From Phycisphaerales bacterium UBA1845 (GTDB lineage: Bacteria > Planctomycetota > Phycisphaerae > UBA1845), in NCBI GenBank assembly GCA_002338715.1, contig DDIR01000057.1, positions 1,491 to 31,989 of the forward strand: 30,499 bases of DNA. The letters run 5' to 3'. This document shows, one piece after another, positions 21,817 to 30,499 of this stretch. The notes under the pieces are model-generated. The model worked only from the letters and a program-made list of their open reading frames with translations. It had not been told where the DNA came from and searched no databases. Within the stretch, counting starts at the first letter, position 1. Each line of letters starts with the position of its first letter. The position numbers and the translations under genes are program-made.

Positions 21817-22863
21817 ATGCGATTGAACGGTTCGACAATTGGGGCCTCGATGATGACGCTGGTGCTCGGGGTGGGTTATGGAATGGCCCGCGCCGATCAG
21901 CTTTTGATGGAGGATGGCCGCATCCTGACCGGGACGGTATCGCGATCGGGCAGCACCTATCAACTGGTGAATTCCAACGGGACCGCGACGGATTATCCGA
22001 AGGACGAGGTCGACCGCTGGGTGGATGTCGCCGAAGTCACGCCAACCGATGCGCTGGCGATGATCCGCGAACTCAACGATCTGGCGATGCCGGTTTTGAC
22101 CGCGCAGGAACCAGATCAGTTTTCGTTCCTGACCGAGACTTCGTCCTTTTCGAGCGACCGGGCATTCGACTCCGAGTCGTCTTCCGGTTTTGCCAACGGC
22201 CGACTTCGACTGGGACGAAGAAGCAGAAGCAACCTGACCATTTCTGCCGGAATCGAAGCCGATCGATTTTCCGCACGCGATTCGCAGGATGCCGAAACCG
22301 TCGATTCAGTGCGCCGCGACAAGGACATCGACAACGTGTTCATCGATGAGTGGGCGCGCTACACCGCGTTGTTCGCCGCACTGGAAAAGGACCCGCGCTA
22401 TCTCTCGTTGACCGATCGGAGGCGCAACAGCGACTCGCTAGCCGACTATTCGCGACGACCGCCGGAGCAGTTTGAAAGCAGCGCCGACGCACTGCGCAAT
22501 GCACTGGCCAGCGTGCGCGCTTGTCTTAAAGCTGCCGGCGATACGCAGGAGCGAATTCGGGCGATTCCCGTGCAAGCGGTCAACGATGAAGAGGATATCC
22601 AGGACTTGGAGATCCGGTTGGCCGACGCCCGCGCCGACCTCGACCGTGCACCCTTTTCCAAGCGCCTCGAACGGCGAGTGCATAACCTCGAAGACCGCTT
22701 GCGGAAGCGGGTCAGCCGCATCGAATTGGACGCCCAGCGCAATGCCCGCGTGGTCGAGCGGAAGATCAACGACTTCGCCCGCAAGCGGCAGAATGCCATC
22801 AGCCAGTTGCAGGCCGTCGAGACGCTCCTGAACCAGGATGCGCAGGTTGCACCGACGCCGTAA
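21817..22863 (+). CDS. Exported coiled-coil protein, unknown function
   Basis: This is a 348-residue product starting at ATG 21817, with GGGGG (21806-21810) as ribosome-binding site. The frame is open from 21676, but the upstream part has no signal-peptide logic. Residues 1 to about 26 form a signal peptide ending in MARA. The mature N-terminus, DQLLMEDGRILTGTVSRSGSTYQLVNSNGTATDYPKDEVDRWV, is a small beta segment resembling the 'G.v.......y.v....g....p..ev..i' modules found in planctomycete exported proteins. From about 170 on it is charged and helical (DLEIRLADARADLDRAPFSKRLERRVHNLEDRLRKRVSRIELDAQRNARVVERKINDFARKR), a likely coiled coil. No enzyme motif was found. It ends about 100 bp before the tRNA-Ala. 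Confidence 0.72.
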   Translation: MRLNGSTIGASMMTLVLGVGYGMARADQLLMEDGRILTGTVSRSGSTYQLVNSNGTATDYPKDEVDRWVDVAEVTPTDALAMIRELNDLAMPVLTAQEPDQFSFLTETSSFSSDRAFDSESSSGFANGRLRLGRRSRSNLTISAGIEADRFSARDSQDAETVDSVRRDKDIDNVFIDEWARYTALFAALEKDPRYLSLTDRRRNSDSLADYSRRPPEQFESSADALRNALASVRACLKAAGDTQERIRAIPVQAVNDEEDIQDLEIRLADARADLDRAPFSKRLERRVHNLEDRLRKRVSRIELDAQRNARVVERKINDFARKRQNAISQLQAVETLLNQDAQVAPTP

Positions 22864-22964
22864 GGAAGCGGAGAATCGCGGCGAAATGGCCCCGGTGTCG
22901 GTTGACGGATCAACGCATAAACGGTTAAATGCGTAACCGAATTCGGCAAGGGTTCGGGAAATCC

Positions 22965-23037
<73 letters not shown>

Positions 23038-23056
23038 GTTTCATAAACCACGCCGA

Positions 23057-23131
23057 CCCCAAGACTTGGGGGACCTTCCGATTTTCGGGAGCGCGGCCAA
23101 AGACGCAAAATTGCGCGGTGTTACACCGCGC
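23057..23131. promoter_or_regulatory. Two dyads between tRNA-Ala and the integrase gene
   Basis: CCCCAAG (23057-23063) and CTTGGGG (23065-23071) are separated by one base. GCGCGGTG (23113-23120) and CACCGCGC (23124-23131) enclose TTA. They lie 20 and 76 bp after the tRNA end, just before the integrase ribosome-binding site. They are plausible recombinase arm sites, repressor operators or RNA hairpins controlling integrase expression. Confidence 0.5.
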
Positions 23132-23141
23132 TAGCGTATTT

Positions 23142-23146
23142 TGGAG
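23142..23146 (+). promoter_or_regulatory. Shine-Dalgarno that selects the integrase start
   Basis: GGAGG (23142-23146) is 6 nt before ATG 23153. This favours that codon over the TTG at 23141, which overlaps the site. Confidence 0.7.
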
Positions 23147-23152
23147 GTCGCG

Positions 23153-24508
23153 ATGCCCAAGAAATCCATTAAGAAAACCCGTCCACCCGCCTATCGTAAA
23201 CGCAAAGGCTCCACCAAGGCTCTCGTCACGCTGCGCGATGCCGCCACGAAGCGAGCACGTGACTATTGGCTTGGCGAATATGGTTCGCCAGAGAGTCGCG
23301 AACTCTACCATCGCACAATCGCCGCATGGGAGGCCTGCGGAAGACGTTGGCCTGATGTGGACTTGGTCAACGGATGCTCAACTTCACAGGACGGATTGAC
23401 CATCATTGAGGTCATCAACCAATACTGGGGTTGGGCCGAATCGTATTACTCAGCCAGCCACCTTGGCGTGCTTAAACCCGTGCTGCGCTTGCTTCGCAAA
23501 TTCTATGGCATGTCACCGGCAGCGGACTTCGGTCCGAACAAGCTGCGAGCTCTACGCGATGAGATGCTTCGCGGTGACGAAGCAAGCAACCCGCCGCGCG
23601 AGCCATGGTCACGCAACGGAATCAATAAGGCGACGCTACGAATTAGGCATGTCTTCAAATGGGCGGTTGCGCGCGAACTGGTTCCGCCTGGCGTACATCA
23701 AGCGCTATGCACACTCGACCCGCTCAAACGCGGCCGCACATCGGCTCGCGAGAATCCCAAGGTTGCGCCGGCACCGCTACATTTGGTGGAGAGGGCGATG
23801 GAGCAAATGAGCAAGCCGATTCGTGCGTTGGTCGAGTTGCAACTCTTAACCGGGGCGCGCCCAGGCGAATTGCTTCAGTTGCGGCTCACCGACTTGGAGA
23901 CAGACCGCCGCGCGGGCATTTGGACTTACCGCCCGGAAGCGCACAAGAATGCTTACCGCGAGCACGATCGCGTGATCTATTTCGGCCCACGCGCGCAAGA
24001 AGTGCTGCAACCGTTCTTGAGCGATCGATCCACAACAGCCTATCTGTTCAGTCCACGCGACGCGGAAGCGGCCCGGCGAGAAGCACTCTCCGAGAAACGC
24101 ACCACGCCACTTTCATGCGGCAATCGCCCGGGAACGAATCGAAGCCTCGCGCCGAGCCGACAGCCAGGCGAATGCTACACCACCGCCAGCTACCGCCGCG
24201 CCATAACCCGCGCATGCGACGCAGCCTTCCCGCCACCAGTGCCACTGCGCCAGCGCGGCAACGAAACCAAAAAGGAATGGCGAAAACGAATGACGACCAA
24301 GCAGAAAGCAGAGCTGCGCGACTGGCAGCGCGAACATCGCTGGCATCCACACCAATTGCGGCACAACGCGGCGACGCATCTACGACGTGAGTTCGGATTG
24401 GAAGCCGCCCAACTCGCCCTCGGCCACGCCAGCGCCGCCATCACCGACGCGGTCTACGCCGAACGGGACCAGGCCCGGGTGATCGACATCATGCGGCGGA
24501 TTGGCTGA
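23153..24508 (+). CDS. Tyrosine recombinase/integrase
   Basis: This 451-residue site-specific recombinase is probably responsible for integration at the neighbouring tRNA-Ala. Catalytic residues are visible: R236 in LTGARPGELLQL, H400 and R403 in HPHQLRHNAATHL, H425 in ALGHASAAITDAVYAE, and the nucleophile Tyr, probably Y435. The N-terminal half (residues 1 to about 200) is basic and carries the arm- and core-binding domains, with a conserved RHVFKWAVARELVPP helix before the catalytic domain. A positively charged insertion at about 300-390, with RQRGNETKKEWRKRMTTKQKAELRDWQREH, lies between catalytic boxes I and II. The start ATG has GGAGG upstream. Two dyads in the 115-bp tRNA-int gap may be its control sites. 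It marks the left border of a mobile element that continues past the window. Confidence 0.94.
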   Translation: MPKKSIKKTRPPAYRKRKGSTKALVTLRDAATKRARDYWLGEYGSPESRELYHRTIAAWEACGRRWPDVDLVNGCSTSQDGLTIIEVINQYWGWAESYYSASHLGVLKPVLRLLRKFYGMSPAADFGPNKLRALRDEMLRGDEASNPPREPWSRNGINKATLRIRHVFKWAVARELVPPGVHQALCTLDPLKRGRTSARENPKVAPAPLHLVERAMEQMSKPIRALVELQLLTGARPGELLQLRLTDLETDRRAGIWTYRPEAHKNAYREHDRVIYFGPRAQEVLQPFLSDRSTTAYLFSPRDAEAARREALSEKRTTPLSCGNRPGTNRSLAPSRQPGECYTTASYRRAITRACDAAFPPPVPLRQRGNETKKEWRKRMTTKQKAELRDWQREHRWHPHQLRHNAATHLRREFGLEAAQLALGHASAAITDAVYAERDQARVIDIMRRIG

Positions 24509-24648
24509 GGGGGGCAAGGGCGGAGACACAATGGGACTATGGCTTTCTCCTTTACGTTAATGTGACTAGACACCAGTTGAACTTTCCATCAACCGAGTAG
24601 GTTTTCGAGGCTTGGAAACGCTGATTACGCTTTTGCCTCGTAAGCGAA

Positions 24649-24666
24649 ATTCTTCGGCCGAAGAAT
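24649..24666. repeat. 18-bp perfect palindrome downstream of the integrase gene
   Basis: ATTCTTCGG (24649-24657) meets CCGAAGAAT (24658-24666). A 5-bp stem-loop, CGCTT (24629-24633) and AAGCG (24642-24646), precedes it. The palindrome sits between the convergent integrase gene and the minus-strand orphan gene. It could be a protein-binding site or a bidirectional hairpin; the lack of a T-run makes a terminator unlikely. Confidence 0.65.
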
Positions 24667-24745
24667 GCCATGTAGGTGCATCTCAATCACCTGCAACCTA
24701 TGAATGAGACTATCGCTCAGCGCTGACTGAGTTCAGGGGGGCAGG

Positions 24746-25231
24746 TCAGACCGCACTCCGGCCTCGCATAGTCGGCGCATTCTCAAGCACATCTGCAAGG
24801 CGGCGTAAGGACATTGACGTTCTTGGGCATACGTACTTGTAAGCTGGAACTTCGTAACGCTTGCCCGGTCGTACTATCTCGTCGATCAGGTCAGCCAGCC
24901 TGCGAAGTCCGCCCACGTCGGTTATTCGCGTAGATAGCATGAGTCCAGATGCCTCAGTCTTTGCATTACCAGCATCGGCCCACTCCGAGATCAAAGCGCT
25001 CTCCGGGACGCCGCCTCGCAACTCCACGTTGACCATATCGGGCCCGACGACCCGAGCGAAGATCATGCAAAACCAATGAAAAAGGTTGCCTCTGGAGTCG
25101 AAGTCGGTATCGACTCGATCATCTGCGATGAACAGATCACTCTTGTCGAGGTTCTTGATTCGTTTGTCAGAGAAGCCTCCGTACGAATCGAAGAGGTGCT
25201 GCTTAAGGAATGCCATTTCTTTGTGTTTCAT
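24746..25231 (-). CDS. Hypothetical protein of the mobile element
   Basis: This 161-residue product starts at ATG 25231 (MKHKEMAFLKQHLFDS), preceded by AAGGTG about 7 nt upstream on the minus strand. The frame runs further to 25354, but that part is not protein-like. Sequence features: an acidic centre (KSDLFIADDRVDTDFD), a hydrophobic aromatic segment (LFHWFCMIFARVVGPDMVNVELRGG), and a C-terminal half with two LRRLADLIDE/LRRLADVLEN repeats that look like amphipathic helices. I do not recognise a family. It is the only minus-strand gene in the element, facing the integrase, and lies in DNA with more A and T than the host genes. Cargo or regulatory roles are both possible. Coding status is likely but not certain. 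Confidence 0.55.
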   Translation of the reverse strand: MKHKEMAFLKQHLFDSYGGFSDKRIKNLDKSDLFIADDRVDTDFDSRGNLFHWFCMIFARVVGPDMVNVELRGGVPESALISEWADAGNAKTEASGLMLSTRITDVGGLRRLADLIDEIVRPGKRYEVPAYKYVCPRTSMSLRRLADVLENAPTMRGRSAV

Positions 25232-25927
25232 GACGTTCACCTTGCCAGCTATCTCTGTCACAATCGGGCTCAATAAGTCTCTTCTACCTATCCCAAGGTT
25301 GCAACAGTGTATCTGATTGACTGGGCGTACACCCAATCCTGATTCACCAGGCATCGGTGCTGGCGAGCCTCATTCAGCCTGATCAAGTTTGGTGTGAATT
25401 GCAACGAACTCCTTGGACGCGGGAAACGGACTGTCAGTTTATCGGTGCCGCTACGCACCACGGAGCCCCCAACTCAAACTTAAGCACCAGACCATGGCGG
25501 CCAGTACGCAGCCAAACAACCGTGCAAGCTCATTCTTGACAGCTGTTTAAGGTGTGAATAGTTGATTTGAAGTCGGGGCGACTGGATTTGAACCGGCAAC
25601 ATCTGGGGCATGGACCAGCTCTTGAGATTGAGGGGGCATTCCGGTTTCTGACAATGGCCTGCTTCTGAAACCTCAATTGATGGCGGTCGCCGCGAATTTT
25701 GGGATCAACGACGAATAGATGTTGATCCGCTTCGCGAGTTAGCAAATCCCGAGATTCAGAAATTACTTCAAGAAAATCAGAGCGCCGCAAATGCCTGTAT
25801 CCTAGCTATTTAATGCACCTGCGCTTCGATTCATCGCCCACTTACTCGAGTTAGCTAGTTAGCACTTCCAATTCACCCTTAAAACCCGTGCCTCGATTGC
25901 AAGGTTCCGAACAAGGAGCAACAAACG
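25232..25927. other. Sparsely coding, AT-richer stretch within the element
   Basis: I see no protein gene I can support in about 700 bp. Visible items are a tRNA 3'-half-like sequence (25573-25618, minus), GGTTTC (25643-25648) with GAAACC (25667-25672), and a doubled GTTAGC near 25850-25864. The DUF1580 gene's ribosome-binding site (AAGGAGC) lies at the right end. The composition suggests decayed DNA from an earlier insertion. Confidence 0.5.
25573..25618 (-). pseudogene. tRNA 3'-half-like remnant (possible old attachment site)
   Basis: Read on the minus strand, CTGG...CCAG (an anticodon-stem-like pair), a short variable region, GCCGG-TTCAAAT-CCAGT (T arm, one mismatch), CGCCCCG and discriminator A follow one another as in the 3' half of a tRNA. 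No D arm or matching 5' acceptor strand (CGGGGCG) is found upstream. Tyrosine integrases commonly duplicate tRNA 3' ends, so this may be a remnant att site from a different tRNA than the tRNA-Ala at 22965. Confidence 0.35.
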
Positions 25928-26302
25928 ATGCACGAACAAATCGGTGAAAACCCACTCATCACCCTGGCCGAGGCAGCCAAAATCGCGCCTGGGCGTCCGT
26001 CTACGAATTGTGTCTGGCGGTGGTGCAGGAAGGGCGTACTCAGCCGCGGCGGGGAGCGCGTCCGACTGCAACACCAGCGCGTAGGGGGAATGATCTTCAC
26101 CACGGCTGCGTGGCTTGAGGAATTTGGCCGCGCCCTTGCGGAAGCGGACACAAAGTACTTCGAACTGTGCGAAGCCGCTTCAGAAGCGGCCCGGGCCGCA
26201 GAACCGCCGCGTCGCCGACGGTCAAACCGAAGCTCAAACGACGGTCAGCGCCAACGTCAACTTGCCGATGTCGAACGCGAACTGGATGCGGCCGGGTTGT
26301 AG
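25928..26302 (+). CDS. DUF1580-type helix-turn-helix protein, excisionase-like
   Basis: This 124-residue protein has AAGGAGC (25911-25917) upstream of its ATG. The N-terminal part, LITLAEAAKIAPGRPSTNCVWRWCRKGVLSRGGERVRLQHQRVGGMIFTTAAWLEEFGRAL, matches the MerR/excisionase-like winged helix layout of DUF1580, a family known mainly from planctomycetes. It has an AA-x-x-x-P-GRP-x-x-x-x-x-W-RW-C-x-x-G recognition region and a wing before the last helix. The C-terminal 50 residues are charged and Arg-rich (RRRRSNRSS) with a helical end. In the element it sits between the integrase region and the primase gene, where satellites and prophages carry Xis or a replication regulator. It probably binds DNA and may direct excision or control the primase gene 14 bp downstream. 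Family call fairly secure, role inferred. Confidence 0.82.
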   Translation: MHEQIGENPLITLAEAAKIAPGRPSTNCVWRWCRKGVLSRGGERVRLQHQRVGGMIFTTAAWLEEFGRALAEADTKYFELCEAASEAARAAEPPRRRRSNRSSNDGQRQRQLADVERELDAAGL

Positions 26303-26316
26303 GCGGGTTTGAACCG

Positions 26317-29316
26317 ATGGTGGCTGATACGGCGATCCAATTCGATGAAGCGCGCATTCGCACCAACGTGCCCGAAGCACTGCGCGAGCGACCCCAATGG
26401 GTCTGTTGGGGTTTCGTCAAGCGCGGCGACAAGCTGACCAAATGCCCCCTCAATCCAATGAAAGGCTCGAAGGCATCTTCCACCGACCCTTCGACCTGGG
26501 GCACATTCGATACGGCGATCGCGGGCAGTCGCAAGTACGGCAACGGCGTTGGATTCGTGTTTACGGCTGAGGATCCGATTGCAGGCGTTGATCTGGACGA
26601 CTGCATCGATCCACAGACGGGGGACATCAAGGCTTGGGCGCGGGTCATTCTCAACGCACTCGGTAGTTATTCGGAGACCAGCCCGTCGGGTACGGGGGTA
26701 AAAGTGTTTCTGCAGGCGACCAAGAACGGCGGGCGATGCAAAACCGGATACAAAGACGGCGCGATCGAGATGTACGACAGCGGCCGGTTCTTCACGGTGA
26801 CCGGCGCTCGGTGGGGCGAGTATTCCACTGATGTCGAGGAGCGGCAGGAACAATTCGATGCGCTTTATGCCAAGGTGTTTGCCAAACCCGAAAAGATGCC
26901 ACCTGCTTCAAGCGAAACAACCTCGCCCGCCACTCCGACCCTGACCGACGACGAAATCATCCGACTCGCTTGCTCAAGTCGCAAATCCGGAACCAAATTC
27001 AGTGCGTTGTGGGACGGCCGTTGGGAAGAGTATTTCAATTCGGCGAGTGAGGCCGACTCCTCGGTCATCTTCACGCTGGCGTACTACACGAAGGACTCCT
27101 CGCAGCTCGATCGGTTGTTTCGATGCAGCGGGCTGATGCGGCCTAAATGGGATGAGCGGCACGGCGAACAATCCTATGGCGAACTGACGATTGGCAATGC
27201 GCTCCAGCATGTGACCAAGCAGTATCGACCACGCAACGCCAGCGCAAGTTCCAAACGATTGACACCGCAAACGCCCGCGAATACCGGTCGCCCCCAGATC
27301 CAGTTTAATGAGAGGCAACTCCGCGATGTTCGAGACGACGCCGTTGAGGCGATCATCGCAGCGAACGATCCGCCAAAATTGTTTCGGCGAGGGAGCGGTA
27401 TTGCTCGGATAGGGCGAACCCGTGACACCGGCGTCGAGACGCCCTTCATCCAGCAACTGGAGGTTGACGGCCTTCGTGGGGAGCTGACCAACGTTGCGGA
27501 CTGGTTCCAGCTCAAGCACCTCAAGCACTCTGATGTTCTTCAGCCGGACCTGCCGCCGACATCGGTCGCCAAGGACATCCTGGCACTTCCGAAGATCGAT
27601 CTACCGCCGCTTGTCGCGATCGTTACCTGCCCAACGTTTGCGGCGGACGGCCACCTGATTATCGAACCGGGCTATGACGAGTCGAGCGGTCTCTGGCATC
27701 ACGAAACACTCACCGATTTCCCGCCGGTACCGTCAACTCCCTCACAGGCGGATATTGATTGTGCCCGTGATCTACTCCTCGATCTGTTGGCCGATTTCCC
27801 ATTCGTCGACGAGGCCAGTTGTGCGCACGCTTTCGCCTTGATCCTGCTGCCTTTTGTTCGCGCCATGATCGAAGGGCCGACGCCTTGCCATGGAGTCGAT
27901 GCGCCCACGCCGGGTACAGGCAAGGACCTGCTCGTCAAAGTCGCCACCATGCCGGCGCTTGGGTACGAAGTCGGCGCGACCACCGCCGCACGCGATCCGG
28001 ACGAATGGCGCAAGAAGATCACATCCGCGCTACTGAGCGGCACCTCAGTCGTCGTTTGGGGCAACATTGCTCGTCGACTGGACAGCGAACACCTCGCGGC
28101 AGTGCTGACAGATACGGTGTGGCGCGATCGACAGTTGGGCAAGACGCACGAGTTAACACTGCCGAATCGAACGATCTGGGCGGCGACGGGCAACAATCTG
28201 GCATTCAGCAAGGAGATCGCCCGACGCGTCATCTGGATACGGCTCGACGCCAAGGTTGAAGCGCCCGAATCACGCACCGGATTCCGCCACGCCAACCTGA
28301 TCCAGTATGCACGCGATCATCGTACTCAACTCGTTCATGCAGCGCTGACGCTTGTGCAGGCGTGGATTTCAGCCGGCCGCCCGGAATGCACGCAGACGAT
28401 GGGCAGCTACGAGTCCTACACCAAGGTGATGGGGGGGATGTTGGCTGTCGCGGGCATATCCGGCTTCCTCAGCAATGCCGATGGGCTGCGTCAACGTGGC
28501 GACACTGAAACGAGCGAATGGCGCGCATTCGTCCTCGCATGGTGGGAACAGCGTGGCGATGCGTGGGTCGGCGTGAATGATCTCATGGGAATGCTTTGGA
28601 ACGATGCAGGCGAGCGCACCGACCTGCTGCTCAATGTCGTCACATCGGGGAAAGAGCGCGGCGCGCCCACACAGCTTGGGCGTCGCCTGTCGAGCAAACG
28701 CGACACGATCATCGCAGGCTTCTGCATTACCGCGAGCCACGAGAAAGACCGTTGCGGACGGTTGGTATATCGATTGCTGCAAAACAGCGTGCAGACTTCC
28801 GCGTCCGAAACCGAAAGTCTGCAAGAAGTCTGCACTCAAGTCTGCACTTCTAACTCCCATCAAAACAACGACTTAGAGGGAAGTGCAGACTTACGCATAC
28901 TTAATTCTGATCTTAACGCATACGCACGGGCGCGCACGCGCACACGCGCGCATACACATAAGGTGGGTAACGGGAAAAAGTCTGCGAAAGTCTGCACATC
29001 GGCGCAACACTCAACACCACAACAGGTTACGCGTGCATACTTACCTGCAGACTTTGTGCAGACTTCACTCGATCACCTTCCGATGTCTGCAGACCTCGAT
29101 TCAAAGCCGAGTATTCGGTGGTTCACGGGTAACGATGCTGCTGTGTCGCAGAACGTGCGCGAACTGGCGCGTGAGCGCGACGGTTGGACACCTGCTTCGT
29201 GGCGCAACCGACTTCTTCAACTTGCTGACTCGTGCGCAGGCAACAATCCCGAACGCGCCGACGAACTGCGCCAGGCGGCGGCATTGATGTGCAGCGATGA
29301 AGGGAGAATCGCATGA
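26317..29316 (+). CDS. Primase-polymerase/helicase fusion, NrS-1-polymerase-like
   Basis: This 999-residue replication protein starts at ATG 26317; the frame upstream overlaps the DUF1580 gene and is not protein-like. The N-terminal domain (about 1-200) is an archaeo-eukaryotic-type primase-polymerase with GVDLDDCID (D92, D94), SPSGTGVKVF (122-131) and IEMYDSGRFFTVTG (E151). It is followed by a linker and a P-loop domain at about 510-690. Its Walker A is TPGTGKDLL (531-539, Asp after Lys instead of Thr/Ser). At the Walker B position it reads VVVWGN (578-583), where relatives as I recall them have an LLDN-type motif. Sensor WAATGNN and RRVIWIRLD are present. An alpha-helical region, a low-complexity linker (about 825-930) rich in Val-Cys-Thr and Arg-Thr, and a small C-terminal helical domain follow. 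The linker DNA contains the iteron cluster. It likely initiates replication of the element. Confidence 0.85.
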   Translation: MVADTAIQFDEARIRTNVPEALRERPQWVCWGFVKRGDKLTKCPLNPMKGSKASSTDPSTWGTFDTAIAGSRKYGNGVGFVFTAEDPIAGVDLDDCIDPQTGDIKAWARVILNALGSYSETSPSGTGVKVFLQATKNGGRCKTGYKDGAIEMYDSGRFFTVTGARWGEYSTDVEERQEQFDALYAKVFAKPEKMPPASSETTSPATPTLTDDEIIRLACSSRKSGTKFSALWDGRWEEYFNSASEADSSVIFTLAYYTKDSSQLDRLFRCSGLMRPKWDERHGEQSYGELTIGNALQHVTKQYRPRNASASSKRLTPQTPANTGRPQIQFNERQLRDVRDDAVEAIIAANDPPKLFRRGSGIARIGRTRDTGVETPFIQQLEVDGLRGELTNVADWFQLKHLKHSDVLQPDLPPTSVAKDILALPKIDLPPLVAIVTCPTFAADGHLIIEPGYDESSGLWHHETLTDFPPVPSTPSQADIDCARDLLLDLLADFPFVDEASCAHAFALILLPFVRAMIEGPTPCHGVDAPTPGTGKDLLVKVATMPALGYEVGATTAARDPDEWRKKITSALLSGTSVVVWGNIARRLDSEHLAAVLTDTVWRDRQLGKTHELTLPNRTIWAATGNNLAFSKEIARRVIWIRLDAKVEAPESRTGFRHANLIQYARDHRTQLVHAALTLVQAWISAGRPECTQTMGSYESYTKVMGGMLAVAGISGFLSNADGLRQRGDTETSEWRAFVLAWWEQRGDAWVGVNDLMGMLWNDAGERTDLLLNVVTSGKERGAPTQLGRRLSSKRDTIIAGFCITASHEKDRCGRLVYRLLQNSVQTSASETESLQEVCTQVCTSNSHQNNDLEGSADLRILNSDLNAYARARTRTRAHTHKVGNGKKSAKVCTSAQHSTPQQVTRAYLPADFVQTSLDHLPMSADLDSKPSIRWFTGNDAAVSQNVRELARERDGWTPASWRNRLLQLADSCAGNNPERADELRQAAALMCSDEGRIA
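28789..29094. repeat. Iteron-like cluster (about ten AAGTCTGCAC sites) within the primase gene
   Basis: Ten matches to AAGTCTGCAC or its complement GTGCAGACTT are present. Forward sites are at 28815, 28826, 28838, 28978 and 28988. Reverse sites are at 28789, 28883, 29045 and 29056. A palindromic GTCTGCAGAC lies at 29085. Neighbours within each run are 10-12 bp apart, about one helical turn. GCATACTTA also occurs twice (28895 and 29035). The pattern resembles Rep-binding iterons of plasmid and satellite origins. It is encoded as VCT/VQTS-type repeats in the protein linker. Confidence 0.8.
28930..28960. repeat. 31-nt alternating purine/pyrimidine tract
   Basis: From 28930 to 28960 every base alternates purine and pyrimidine (runs of CG and CA/TA steps), a classic Z-DNA-prone composition. 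It lies between the two iteron clusters and is translated as Arg/Ala/Thr/His repeats (ARTRTRAHTH). It may help local unwinding. Confidence 0.85.
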
Positions 29317-29717
29317 GACAGATGCATGTAGATGCGCAACGTCACACGGAAGCAAACTTCCGGAGAATCGCAAACCCGCGAGACATCAGTTTCGAATGCA
29401 ATGGTTCCTTCCTGCGCGAAAACGCAACCGAGCCCCGCGGGAACAACCGCAAGGATAGACCGAGTTTGTTGCGCCTGTCCGGATTTATTCAGAGCGCTTG
29501 GCGCAGGGACCACGGTTGGCACACGGCGCGAACGGGGCGCCCGTGGGACGCGATCGTGGCGATTTGCGCCCACACCACCACGTTACGGCTTGGGCCCAAT
29601 GTGGGCGAACCGTGTGTGACCTTGATTGAGATTACGTGGCGGGGTTTGGCTCTGTCGGAGATTGGATACGGGACCGATGGCGGTCCACAAGAAAGGAGGA
29701 ATTTGAATGCAGATTGA
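29313..29717 (+). CDS. Hypothetical protein, translationally coupled to the primase gene
   Basis: This 134-residue frame has an ATG that overlaps the primase stop (ATGA, 29313-29316) and is preceded by AGGGAG (29301-29306), a strong sign of coupled translation. It ends 11 bp inside the next gene. The product is basic, with many Arg, Asn and His residues, for example MRQMHVDAQRHTEANFRRIANPRD. It contains WRRDHGWHTARTGRPWDAIVAICAHTTTLRLGP, whose GRPWDAIVA resembles short phage-type accessory proteins, but I cannot assign a family. There is no signal peptide or membrane helix. Coding status rests on the ribosome-binding site and overlap rather than on recognised homology. It could be a small DNA-binding or accessory protein of the replication-methylation module. 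Confidence 0.6.
   Translation: MRQMHVDAQRHTEANFRRIANPRDISFECNGSFLRENATEPRGNNRKDRPSLLRLSGFIQSAWRRDHGWHTARTGRPWDAIVAICAHTTTLRLGPNVGEPCVTLIEITWRGLALSEIGYGTDGGPQERRNLNAD
29692..29700 (+). promoter_or_regulatory. Near-perfect Shine-Dalgarno of the ParB-methyltransferase gene
   Basis: AAAGGAGGA (29692-29700) lies 6 nt before ATG 29707 and inside the end of the preceding gene. It fixes the start. Confidence 0.75.
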
Positions 29718-30499
29718 GATGATCGCAATCGACGAAGTCGCCGAGTATGGACGGAATCCACGTATCATCAGCGATGAGGCGGTCGCAGCGGTGGCGCGAT
29801 CGATCGAGTCATTTGGATTCAAGGTTCCCGTGGTTATCGATGCCGACGGAACACTAATCGCCGGCCACACACGTCTGCGTGCGGCCCGCAAGCTCGGGCT
29901 CGCCACGGTGCCCGTAATTCGTGCAACGGATCTGACGTCCGAACAAGTGAAGGCGTTCCGCCTAACGGATAATCAGGTGGCATCGCTCTCGAAATGGGAC
30001 TACGACCTGCTGCCCATCGAACTAGCCGAACTTCAGGACGCCGGGATCGACTGGTCGCTGCTGGGATTCGATGACGATGAACTGGCCAAATTGCTCGGCG
30101 GCGAGATCACGGAGGGCCTGACCGATCCTGATTCAATTCCCGAACCGCCGGACGAACCGATAACGCAGCGTGGCGATCTTTGGATTCTCGGCAACCATCG
30201 ATTGCTTTGCGGCGACAGTTCGTCGGTTGAAGACCTTGATCGTCTACTGGATGGGGCCCCAATCCATCTGGTCAATACCGACCCCCCATACAACGTGCGA
30301 GTCGAGCCACGCAGCAACAACGCCATCGCAGCTGGCGGATCGGGTTTGCCGCATCCGGAATCGAACGGCAAGAAGCGTGGCAAACGCACGCATCACCAGT
30401 CTTTCGATGTTGCACGCCAAGGCGAGAGGAAGCGCACGACACAGAAGATGCGTCCCAAGGACCGCCCGCTCGAGAACGACTTCGTCACCGACGAGGCGT
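29707..30499 (+). CDS. ParB-domain/DNA methyltransferase fusion (3' partial)
   Basis: The frame is open to the window end (264 codons seen). Residues 1 to about 90 form a ParB/sulfiredoxin-like domain: EYGRNPRIISDEAVAAVARSIESFGFKVPVVIDADGTLIAGHTRLRAARKLGLATVPVI, with the GHxRxxAA core at G53-A60. A helical spacer (DYDLLPIELAELQDAG) leads into a methyltransferase beginning ITQRGDLWILGNHRLLCGDSS, then motif IV as TDPPYNV (D192-P193-P194-Y195). Motif IV before motif I indicates the beta class of N4-cytosine or N6-adenine methyltransferases. Such fusions are typical of phages and mobile elements. In this element it may mask host restriction sites or regulate replication. The catalytic C-terminal motifs and the recognition domain lie beyond the window, as does the true end. 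Confidence 0.9.
   Translation, partial: MQIEMIAIDEVAEYGRNPRIISDEAVAAVARSIESFGFKVPVVIDADGTLIAGHTRLRAARKLGLATVPVIRATDLTSEQVKAFRLTDNQVASLSKWDYDLLPIELAELQDAGIDWSLLGFDDDELAKLLGGEITEGLTDPDSIPEPPDEPITQRGDLWILGNHRLLCGDSSSVEDLDRLLDGAPIHLVNTDPPYNVRVEPRSNNAIAAGGSGLPHPESNGKKRGKRTHHQSFDVARQGERKRTTQKMRPKDRPLENDFVTDEA

Follow-up and report, generated by a model that had tools for sequence, protein, structure and literature searches.

An iteron array inside a primase-helicase gene of Phycisphaerales bacterium UBA1845 as a probable replication origin

Introduction

Can a replication origin lie within the reading frame of the protein that reads it? This question is raised by an array of short DNA repeats (iterons) at 28789-29096 of the window, the 30,499-nucleotide stretch of contig DDIR01000057.1 of Phycisphaerales bacterium UBA1845 analyzed here. 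The array is located in the 3' part of a primase-helicase gene. An earlier reading made from the sequence alone (the sequence-only reading) had proposed that this part of the gene doubles as the origin of the element, a proposal supported by DNA-level conservation, covariation, and like arrays 3' of the gene, including that of the Streptomyces plasmid pWTY27. With a probability of about 0.88, the array is taken to be where replication of an integrated phage or phage-like element starts, its reader being the protein encoded by the surrounding gene. The observed basis consists of the array, its symmetry, its conservation at the DNA level, the covariation of its word with residues of the protein, and like arrays at or beyond the gene end. 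Together with the position of the array and the parallels to pWTY27, phage A2 and the Staphylococcus aureus pathogenicity islands (SaPIs), these observations lead to the origin assignment.

Structure of the iteron array

A scan of 28789-29096 for AAGTCTGCAC yielded 12 matches at no more than two mismatches (six exact, three with one mismatch and three with two). A matrix scan added a degenerate iteron, AAGTATGC, on the minus strand at 28893-28902 (L001 4079), and, to the left of the array, a single isolated near-match (L001 3898). The following features were assigned.

28789..28798, minus strand: iteron 1, exact (AAGTCTGCAC match scan, as for iterons 2 to 5)
28815..28824, plus strand: iteron 2, one mismatch
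28826..28835, plus strand: iteron 3, exact
28838..28847, plus strand: iteron 4, exact
28883..28892, minus strand: iteron 5, exact
28893..28902, minus strand: iteron 6, degenerate (AAGTATGC core), part of the GCATACTTA repeat (matrix scan; the related locus L009 has an exact site here)
28903..28977, no strand: central spacer, 75 bp, GC 0.56 (computed)
28930..28960, no strand: 31-nt alternating purine/pyrimidine tract, Z-DNA-prone core (run scan)
28978..28987, plus strand: iteron 7, two mismatches, 8-mer core exact (match scan)
28988..28997, plus strand: iteron 8, exact (match scan)
29033..29042, minus strand: iteron 9, degenerate (AAGTATGCAC; one mismatch to AAGTCTGCAC), second GCATACTTA copy (match and matrix scans)
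29045..29054, minus strand: iteron 10, one mismatch, 8-mer core exact (match scan)
29056..29065, minus strand: iteron 11, exact (match scan)
29083..29092, plus strand: iteron 12, two mismatches, overlaps a reverse match, also with two mismatches, at 29087-29096 (match scan)

When the site at 28893 is counted and the overlapping pair at 29083/29087 is taken as one, the layout is mirror-symmetric (- +++ -- / core / ++ --- +), with six iterons per side forming two mirror-image sets around the alternating tract. Start-to-start spacing of the 8-mers is 24, 11, 12, 47 and 10 in the left half and 10, 47, 12 and 11 in the right half, followed by the pair at 29083; steps of 10-12 bp correspond to about one helical turn. 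All three reading frames and both strands are used, so that differing peptides are encoded. At iteron 12, the matrix scan of the window's own copy gave only the reverse match; a plus-strand counterpart is located 25 bp past the last minus-strand site in L003-L006, L008-L010 and L012. The exact 10-mer was found 15 times in the genome (six in the array, three in an incomplete second copy on contig C36, six scattered), and the pattern read backwards, used as control, 11 times.

The ten motif copies of the sequence-only reading are obtained only if near-copies are counted. Its palindrome in the right cluster is the overlapping pair at 29083/29087. The mirror symmetry of the whole array had been missed. 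The repetition of GCATACTTA at 28895 and 29035 was found as described and consists of two degenerate iterons. The alternating tract, too, was confirmed: its 31 nt from 28930 alternate without exception, and no other run in the 30.5-kb window is as long. The array is in frame within the coding sequence, the open reading frame (ORF) of which ends at 29316.

By eye, an AAC ... GTT-like element recurs between the three-iteron and the two-iteron group of each half (about 28849-28881 and 29001-29033) and is perhaps a second contact site. The copy on contig C36 (L002, L053) belongs to a second primase-helicase of the same genome, which is 66% identical over residues 316-894 and cut by the contig end; its array uses the same word, AAGTCTGC.

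Conservation in related loci

A helicase match was obtained in 56 distinct loci; in 38 of these, one 8-mer recurs near the ORF end, with five or more copies inside 420 bp. Relatives with 44-69% helicase identity carry the array at the same place with largely kept spacing and a mostly different word, changed at many sites at once: AAGTCTGC in the window and L002, AAGTCTGCC in L003 and L004, AGGTATGC in L005, L006, L008 and L012, AGGTCGGC in L009, AGGTCTGT in L010, AGGTCTGC in L014, AAGTCGGC in L016, GAGTCGGC in L020, and GAGTCTGCG or AAGTCTGCG in L072. The exception among close relatives is L007 (65% identity), the ORF of which ends early and near whose end no array was found. In L009, the 8-mers start at intervals of 24, 11, 12, 47 and 10, then 104, then 10, 47, 12, 11 and 25, with the signs - +++ -- / ++ --- +. 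The right half (9-10, 47-48, 12, 11, 25 in gene orientation) is kept in L003-L006, L008-L010, L012, L014 and L016. All left-half sites are present in the window, L006 and L009, and all but one in L016; the outer left sites vary in number or orientation in L003, L004, L005, L008, L010, L012 and L014. In L020, the inner part of the layout is kept.

Constraint at the DNA level was assessed by synonymous recoding. The window has nine exact 8-mers, whereas 1000 recodings had 0.65 on average and never more than 3; in the same recodings, the most frequent 8-mer of any kind reached a mean of 2.31 and a maximum of 5. Among the 17 in-gene loci listed, 15 were computed (L116 and L043 were left out); in these, 6-12 sites are exact, whereas recoding left 0.15-1.07 on average and at most 2-4, and in all 15 the observed count exceeds that of the most frequent 8-mer in any of the 1000 recodings. 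Sites are distributed over three frames in 13 of the 15 and over two in L004 and L072.

The position of the array relative to the stop codon varies. A tree was computed from 36 loci, L043 and L044 being omitted by hand; the array is wholly within the gene in 17 of these, straddles the stop codon in six and follows the gene in 13. For distance measurements, 40 of the 56 ORFs could be placed, and the 31 with at least five sites were tabulated. The first exact site is located -4 to 28 bp from the end of the winged-helix region (residue 822) in 20 of the 21 in-gene or straddling loci (208 bp in L111) and 54-269 bp from it in the ten downstream loci. The distance of the stop codon from residue 822 ranges from 15 to 576 bp over all 31 loci. 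The first-site distance being steady and the stop distance variable, the origin in the in-gene and straddling groups stays just 3' of the winged helix, and it is the stop codon that shifts. The tree requires three changes between in-gene and other positions, of which the starred branches force one, and long branches meet; so the origin would have been captured into the gene one to three times. In more distant relatives the array straddles the stop codon or follows the gene, and two of these cases are the experimentally required origin of pWTY27 and the annotated origin of phage A2. L043 and L044, with only 23% helicase identity, still carry an array followed by a similar C-terminal domain, which in L044 is encoded by a separate ORF.

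Domain structure of the primase-helicase

The protein features relevant to the array are the following.

26317..29316, plus strand: primase-helicase gene, 999 amino acids (ORF; PF22763; PDB NrS-1 match; whole-model fold matches)
28573..28782, plus strand: winged-helix region, residues 753-822, proposed iteron reader (model; weak fold matches; covariation)
28681..28683, plus strand: codon of residue 789 (Arg), co-varies with iteron base 2 (33 of 33 rows, 7 changes on the tree)
28753..28755, plus strand: codon of residue 813 (Cys) in the wing, co-varies with iteron base 6 (26 rows, 6 with G)
29149..29286, plus strand: C-terminal three-helix domain, residues 945-990 (model; similar stretches on other proteins)

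The domain order is primase-polymerase and helix-bundle, SF3/D5-like helicase, winged helix, origin-encoded linker and C-terminal domain. Both domains by which NrS-1-like primase-polymerase/SF3 helicases are recognized were found: the primase of phage NrS-1 in the PDB (6k9a) was matched with an E-value of 5.2e-40, and the NrS-1 helix-bundle domain PF22763 at residues 244-305 with an E-value of 1.5e-21. Foldseek searches with the whole model matched NrS-1 CTR, the SaPI5 primase-helicase, AsfvPrimPol and poxvirus E5/D5 at identities of 9-13%. Based on the matches to NrS-1 CTR, SaPI5 and E5/D5, a hexameric SF3-like helicase is proposed.

The structure model has a mean predicted local distance difference test (pLDDT) score of 79, and residues 824-940 are almost wholly below 50. 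The array is located in this low-confidence stretch, between the winged helix and the small C-terminal domain, and the linker encoded by it is probably disordered, which would explain why the gene tolerates the origin. In the model, the winged helix comprises helices 753-760 and 783-793 and wing strands 802-810 and 816-822. The isolated tail gave no strong fold match; its weak matches include the winged-helix proteins Fur/Zur, ArsR and PadR. The protein or a part of it was matched in 68 of the 397 genomes of the class. In L040, L041 and L042, proteins with a length of 193-258 amino acids and no helicase match close with a stretch similar to the C-terminal domain (residues 927-998), and their start presumably resembles a docking domain.

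Covariation of the iteron word and the winged helix

In the recognition helix (QLGxRL), residue 789 differs with iteron base 2: A at this base goes with R, K, H or Q, and G goes with M or I. This holds in 33 of 33 rows, several of which are the same element twice; in protein-only rows the base was deduced from Lys or Arg in the linker. On a tree built without the winged helix and the linker, seven changes were counted for residue 789 and seven for base 2, and the independent pairs on starred branches agree in six of six cases (sign test, p 0.03). A screen of 724 columns in 26 rows (seven near-duplicates dropped) returned as full predictors of base 2 column 789 and the linker columns 830, 888 and 923, so that 789 is the sole one outside the linker; residues 888 and 923 correspond by coordinates to codons inside iterons 7 and 12. 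Residue 813 is K, R or H in all six rows with G at base 6 and in none of the 20 others (comparison by rows; P0018, with mixed peptides, was taken as T). For base 5, eight columns fit fully, but A occurs in just four of 26 rows (those of the AGGTATGC kinds), and nothing was drawn from this base.

That residues 789 and 813 change along with the word suggests that the C-terminal part of the initiator may serve as iteron reader, a feature of phage-inducible chromosomal islands (PICIs) and SaPIs. The pattern for which the sequence-only reading had proposed to examine homologues is borne out: position and much of the spacing are kept, the word differs per element and is destroyed by recoding, and it tracks the recognition-helix residue of the same protein.

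Alternating purine/pyrimidine core

After the 31-nt tract, the next longest alternating run in the window has 14 nt. In 27 of the 38 array loci, the longest alternating run of a 3-kb frame falls in the array, with 4.4 expected by length share; L005/L006/L008/L012, L095/L096 and L100/L104 are near relatives and not independent. The longest array run lies beyond the primase stop codon in 19 loci, and in 13 of these it is also the longest of the 3-kb frame. The tract is therefore probably not just a by-product of the peptide encoded in the window, and its derivation from a RAHAHA peptide was rejected mainly on this ground. Recoding gave P < 0.05 for the longest run in four of nine loci, namely the window (0.018), L003, L004 and L010, and no such value in L005, L006, L008, L012 and L014.

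In the remaining 11 of the 38 loci, the longest run is located outside the array; they include L020, L024, L031, L043, L110 and L111, with runs of 6-8. The phage A2 array has two 11-nt TA-rich runs, tied with one elsewhere, the NrS-1 array has a 9-nt run that is not the longest one, and in Listeria phage PSA no run exceeds 5. Spacer GC is 0.56 in the window and 0.53-0.75 in close relatives; it is 0.39 in L043 and 0.37 in L044, both without the tract. The tract may form Z-DNA or melt.

A hairpin was considered as well and dropped as a general feature of the core: among 12 loci folded, z-scores of -6.5, -5.6 and -4.4 were obtained for L006, L008 and pWTY27, but -1.2 for the window and values between -0.8 and -2.6 for the other eight. 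In the central spacers of L005 and L006, the core opens with TTTTCCC and closes with GGGAAAA (similar but imperfect in L008); these ends are possible inverted primase start sites.

Proposed mechanism

We infer from these data that the winged helix (residues 753-822), which directly precedes the linker, would bind the iterons, and that each side, with its six iterons in mirror orientation, would load one SF3-type hexamer around the core. The alternating core may then open or change its form under torsion, after which the primase domain would prime bidirectional replication.

A wider generalization is put forward tentatively, and as a whole we lean against it: that these arrays form a family of phage and mobile-element origins in which a conserved alternating core (mostly CG/CA), capable of forming Z-DNA under torsion, would replace the AT-rich opening module, with one hexamer per six-site half, and that in this clade the origin, being inside the initiator frame, would let the reader and its sites evolve together and be passed on as a single DNA unit.

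A natural series is thus available, with about seven matched changes, in which a single gene contains the residue that reads the DNA as well as the sites that are read; its natural pairs can serve to test the initiator-origin specificity of primase-helicases. The GC-rich alternating core, which recurs among the loci, is a testable case for non-B DNA at origins without an AT-rich opening region, and the sixfold halves predict the loading of two hexamers.

Alternative explanations

Iteron arrays can also act in regulation or partition. The array might accordingly be an operator or a parS-like site bound by the primase or another protein of the element, with the origin elsewhere. An ORF at 29707-30499, open at the window end, follows the gene, and the protein at a like place in L050 matches ParB-like and DNA methyltransferase families. 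This explanation is considered unlikely, given that the array word tracks a residue of the primase-helicase itself, that symmetric halves around a core suit an origin, and that the like region of pWTY27 is required for replication (PMC3583192). Moreover, the most repeated words listed for 20-kb stretches of L047 and L050 indicate no second array.

The degenerate sites, and the possibility that the element is a fixed prophage, would also fit a former origin that is now unused and drifts inside the gene; sites and much of the spacing are, however, kept across relatives, and the sites co-vary with a protein residue over seven changes, which makes such a relic very improbable. Hardly credible is a repeat kept for peptide function, such as a linker with Cys residues (VCTQVC). 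In its favour, the array is read in frame with the gene, and the in-gene relatives have a linker too; but one DNA word in three frames and on both strands gives different peptides, synonymous recoding removes the word, and arrays of relatives are located at or beyond the stop codon; these points contradict the protein-level explanation, and the linker has very low model confidence. An RNA element was dropped as an explanation of the array, as in 22500-30499 the tRNA alone reached the Rfam gathering score.

Genomic context

Upstream lie a tRNA-Ala gene (22965-23037) and an integrase gene (23141-24508), in agreement with an integrated element. When 11 virus records were searched for terminase families, weak matches were obtained in five, some of them on helicase-like frames; the element may be a phage or another integrative element.

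Comparison with known origins and initiators

Replication of pWTY27 requires repAB and a 300-bp iteron region; its RepA binds this region in electrophoretic mobility shift assays and footprints, and replication is bidirectional (PMC3583192). The window protein gave a 33% tblastn match at 720-2066 of the plasmid record, where a gene (621-2237) beside the iteron region is taken to be repA. In our scan, GTGGGAAC occurs nine times just after this helicase gene, and the array contains a 12-nt alternating run. The homologous helicase is shared, and the 8-bp plasmid iterons are oppositely oriented directly 3' of its gene; unlike in the window, the array is called non-coding in PMC3583192, the primase is a separate protein and the word is GTGGGAAC. 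The phage A2 record carries a rep_origin annotation that overlaps with the end of the primase and contains the array; a literature search on the A2 origin returned no paper. Phage PSA has five copies of AACTATCCA just after the primase.

The primase-polymerase of phage NrS-1 (718 amino acids; PMC7102993) shares the PF22763 helix-bundle domain, the primase fold and the SF3-like helicase. Its array of 11 AAGTGTAAC is located after the primase gene, unlike that of the window, overlaps an annotated small ORF, and has a core that is AT-rich by eye. Gene 29 of this phage (L059 8164-8565) reads through the array and may not be a real gene. The crenarchaeal plasmid pRN1 likewise encodes a primase-SF3 helicase with a C-terminal winged helix and has its origin 3' of the gene; this origin is a stem-loop, described in PMC4234260 as without iteron structure.

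As in lambda, the iterons are located within the coding sequence of the initiator: the four iterons of lambda ori in gene O, each 19 bp long, stand to one side of an AT-rich stretch, and the helicase is recruited with the help of P (PMC4488673). The central spacer of the window array, with a GC content of 0.56, is not AT-rich, and the window protein has a predicted helicase fold of its own, whereas the lambda helicase comes via P. A literature search over titles and abstract starts, in which lambda ori in gene O was present, returned neither an origin inside a primase-helicase gene nor a Z-DNA-prone phage origin, which is no proof of absence.

A functional parallel is found in the islands. In PICIs, two iteron sets flank an AT-rich region 3' of the initiator gene (PMC6092414). 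The C-terminal domain of SaPI Rep reads the origin directly downstream, apparently as two hexamers, and that of Cch2 binds its putative origin (PMC7581432). Two iteron sets around a core of about 80 bp, an initiator helicase with a C-terminal DNA-binding domain (here predicted), and the SaPI5 primase-helicase as structural neighbour are shared with the window. The window array differs in its position within the ORF (immediately 3' of the winged-helix part), in its six plus six mirror-symmetric sites, and in its GC-rich alternating rather than AT-rich core. Because two defining features fail, the AT-rich core and the position after the gene, the segment is not filed as a PICI/SaPI origin, yet it would work like one.

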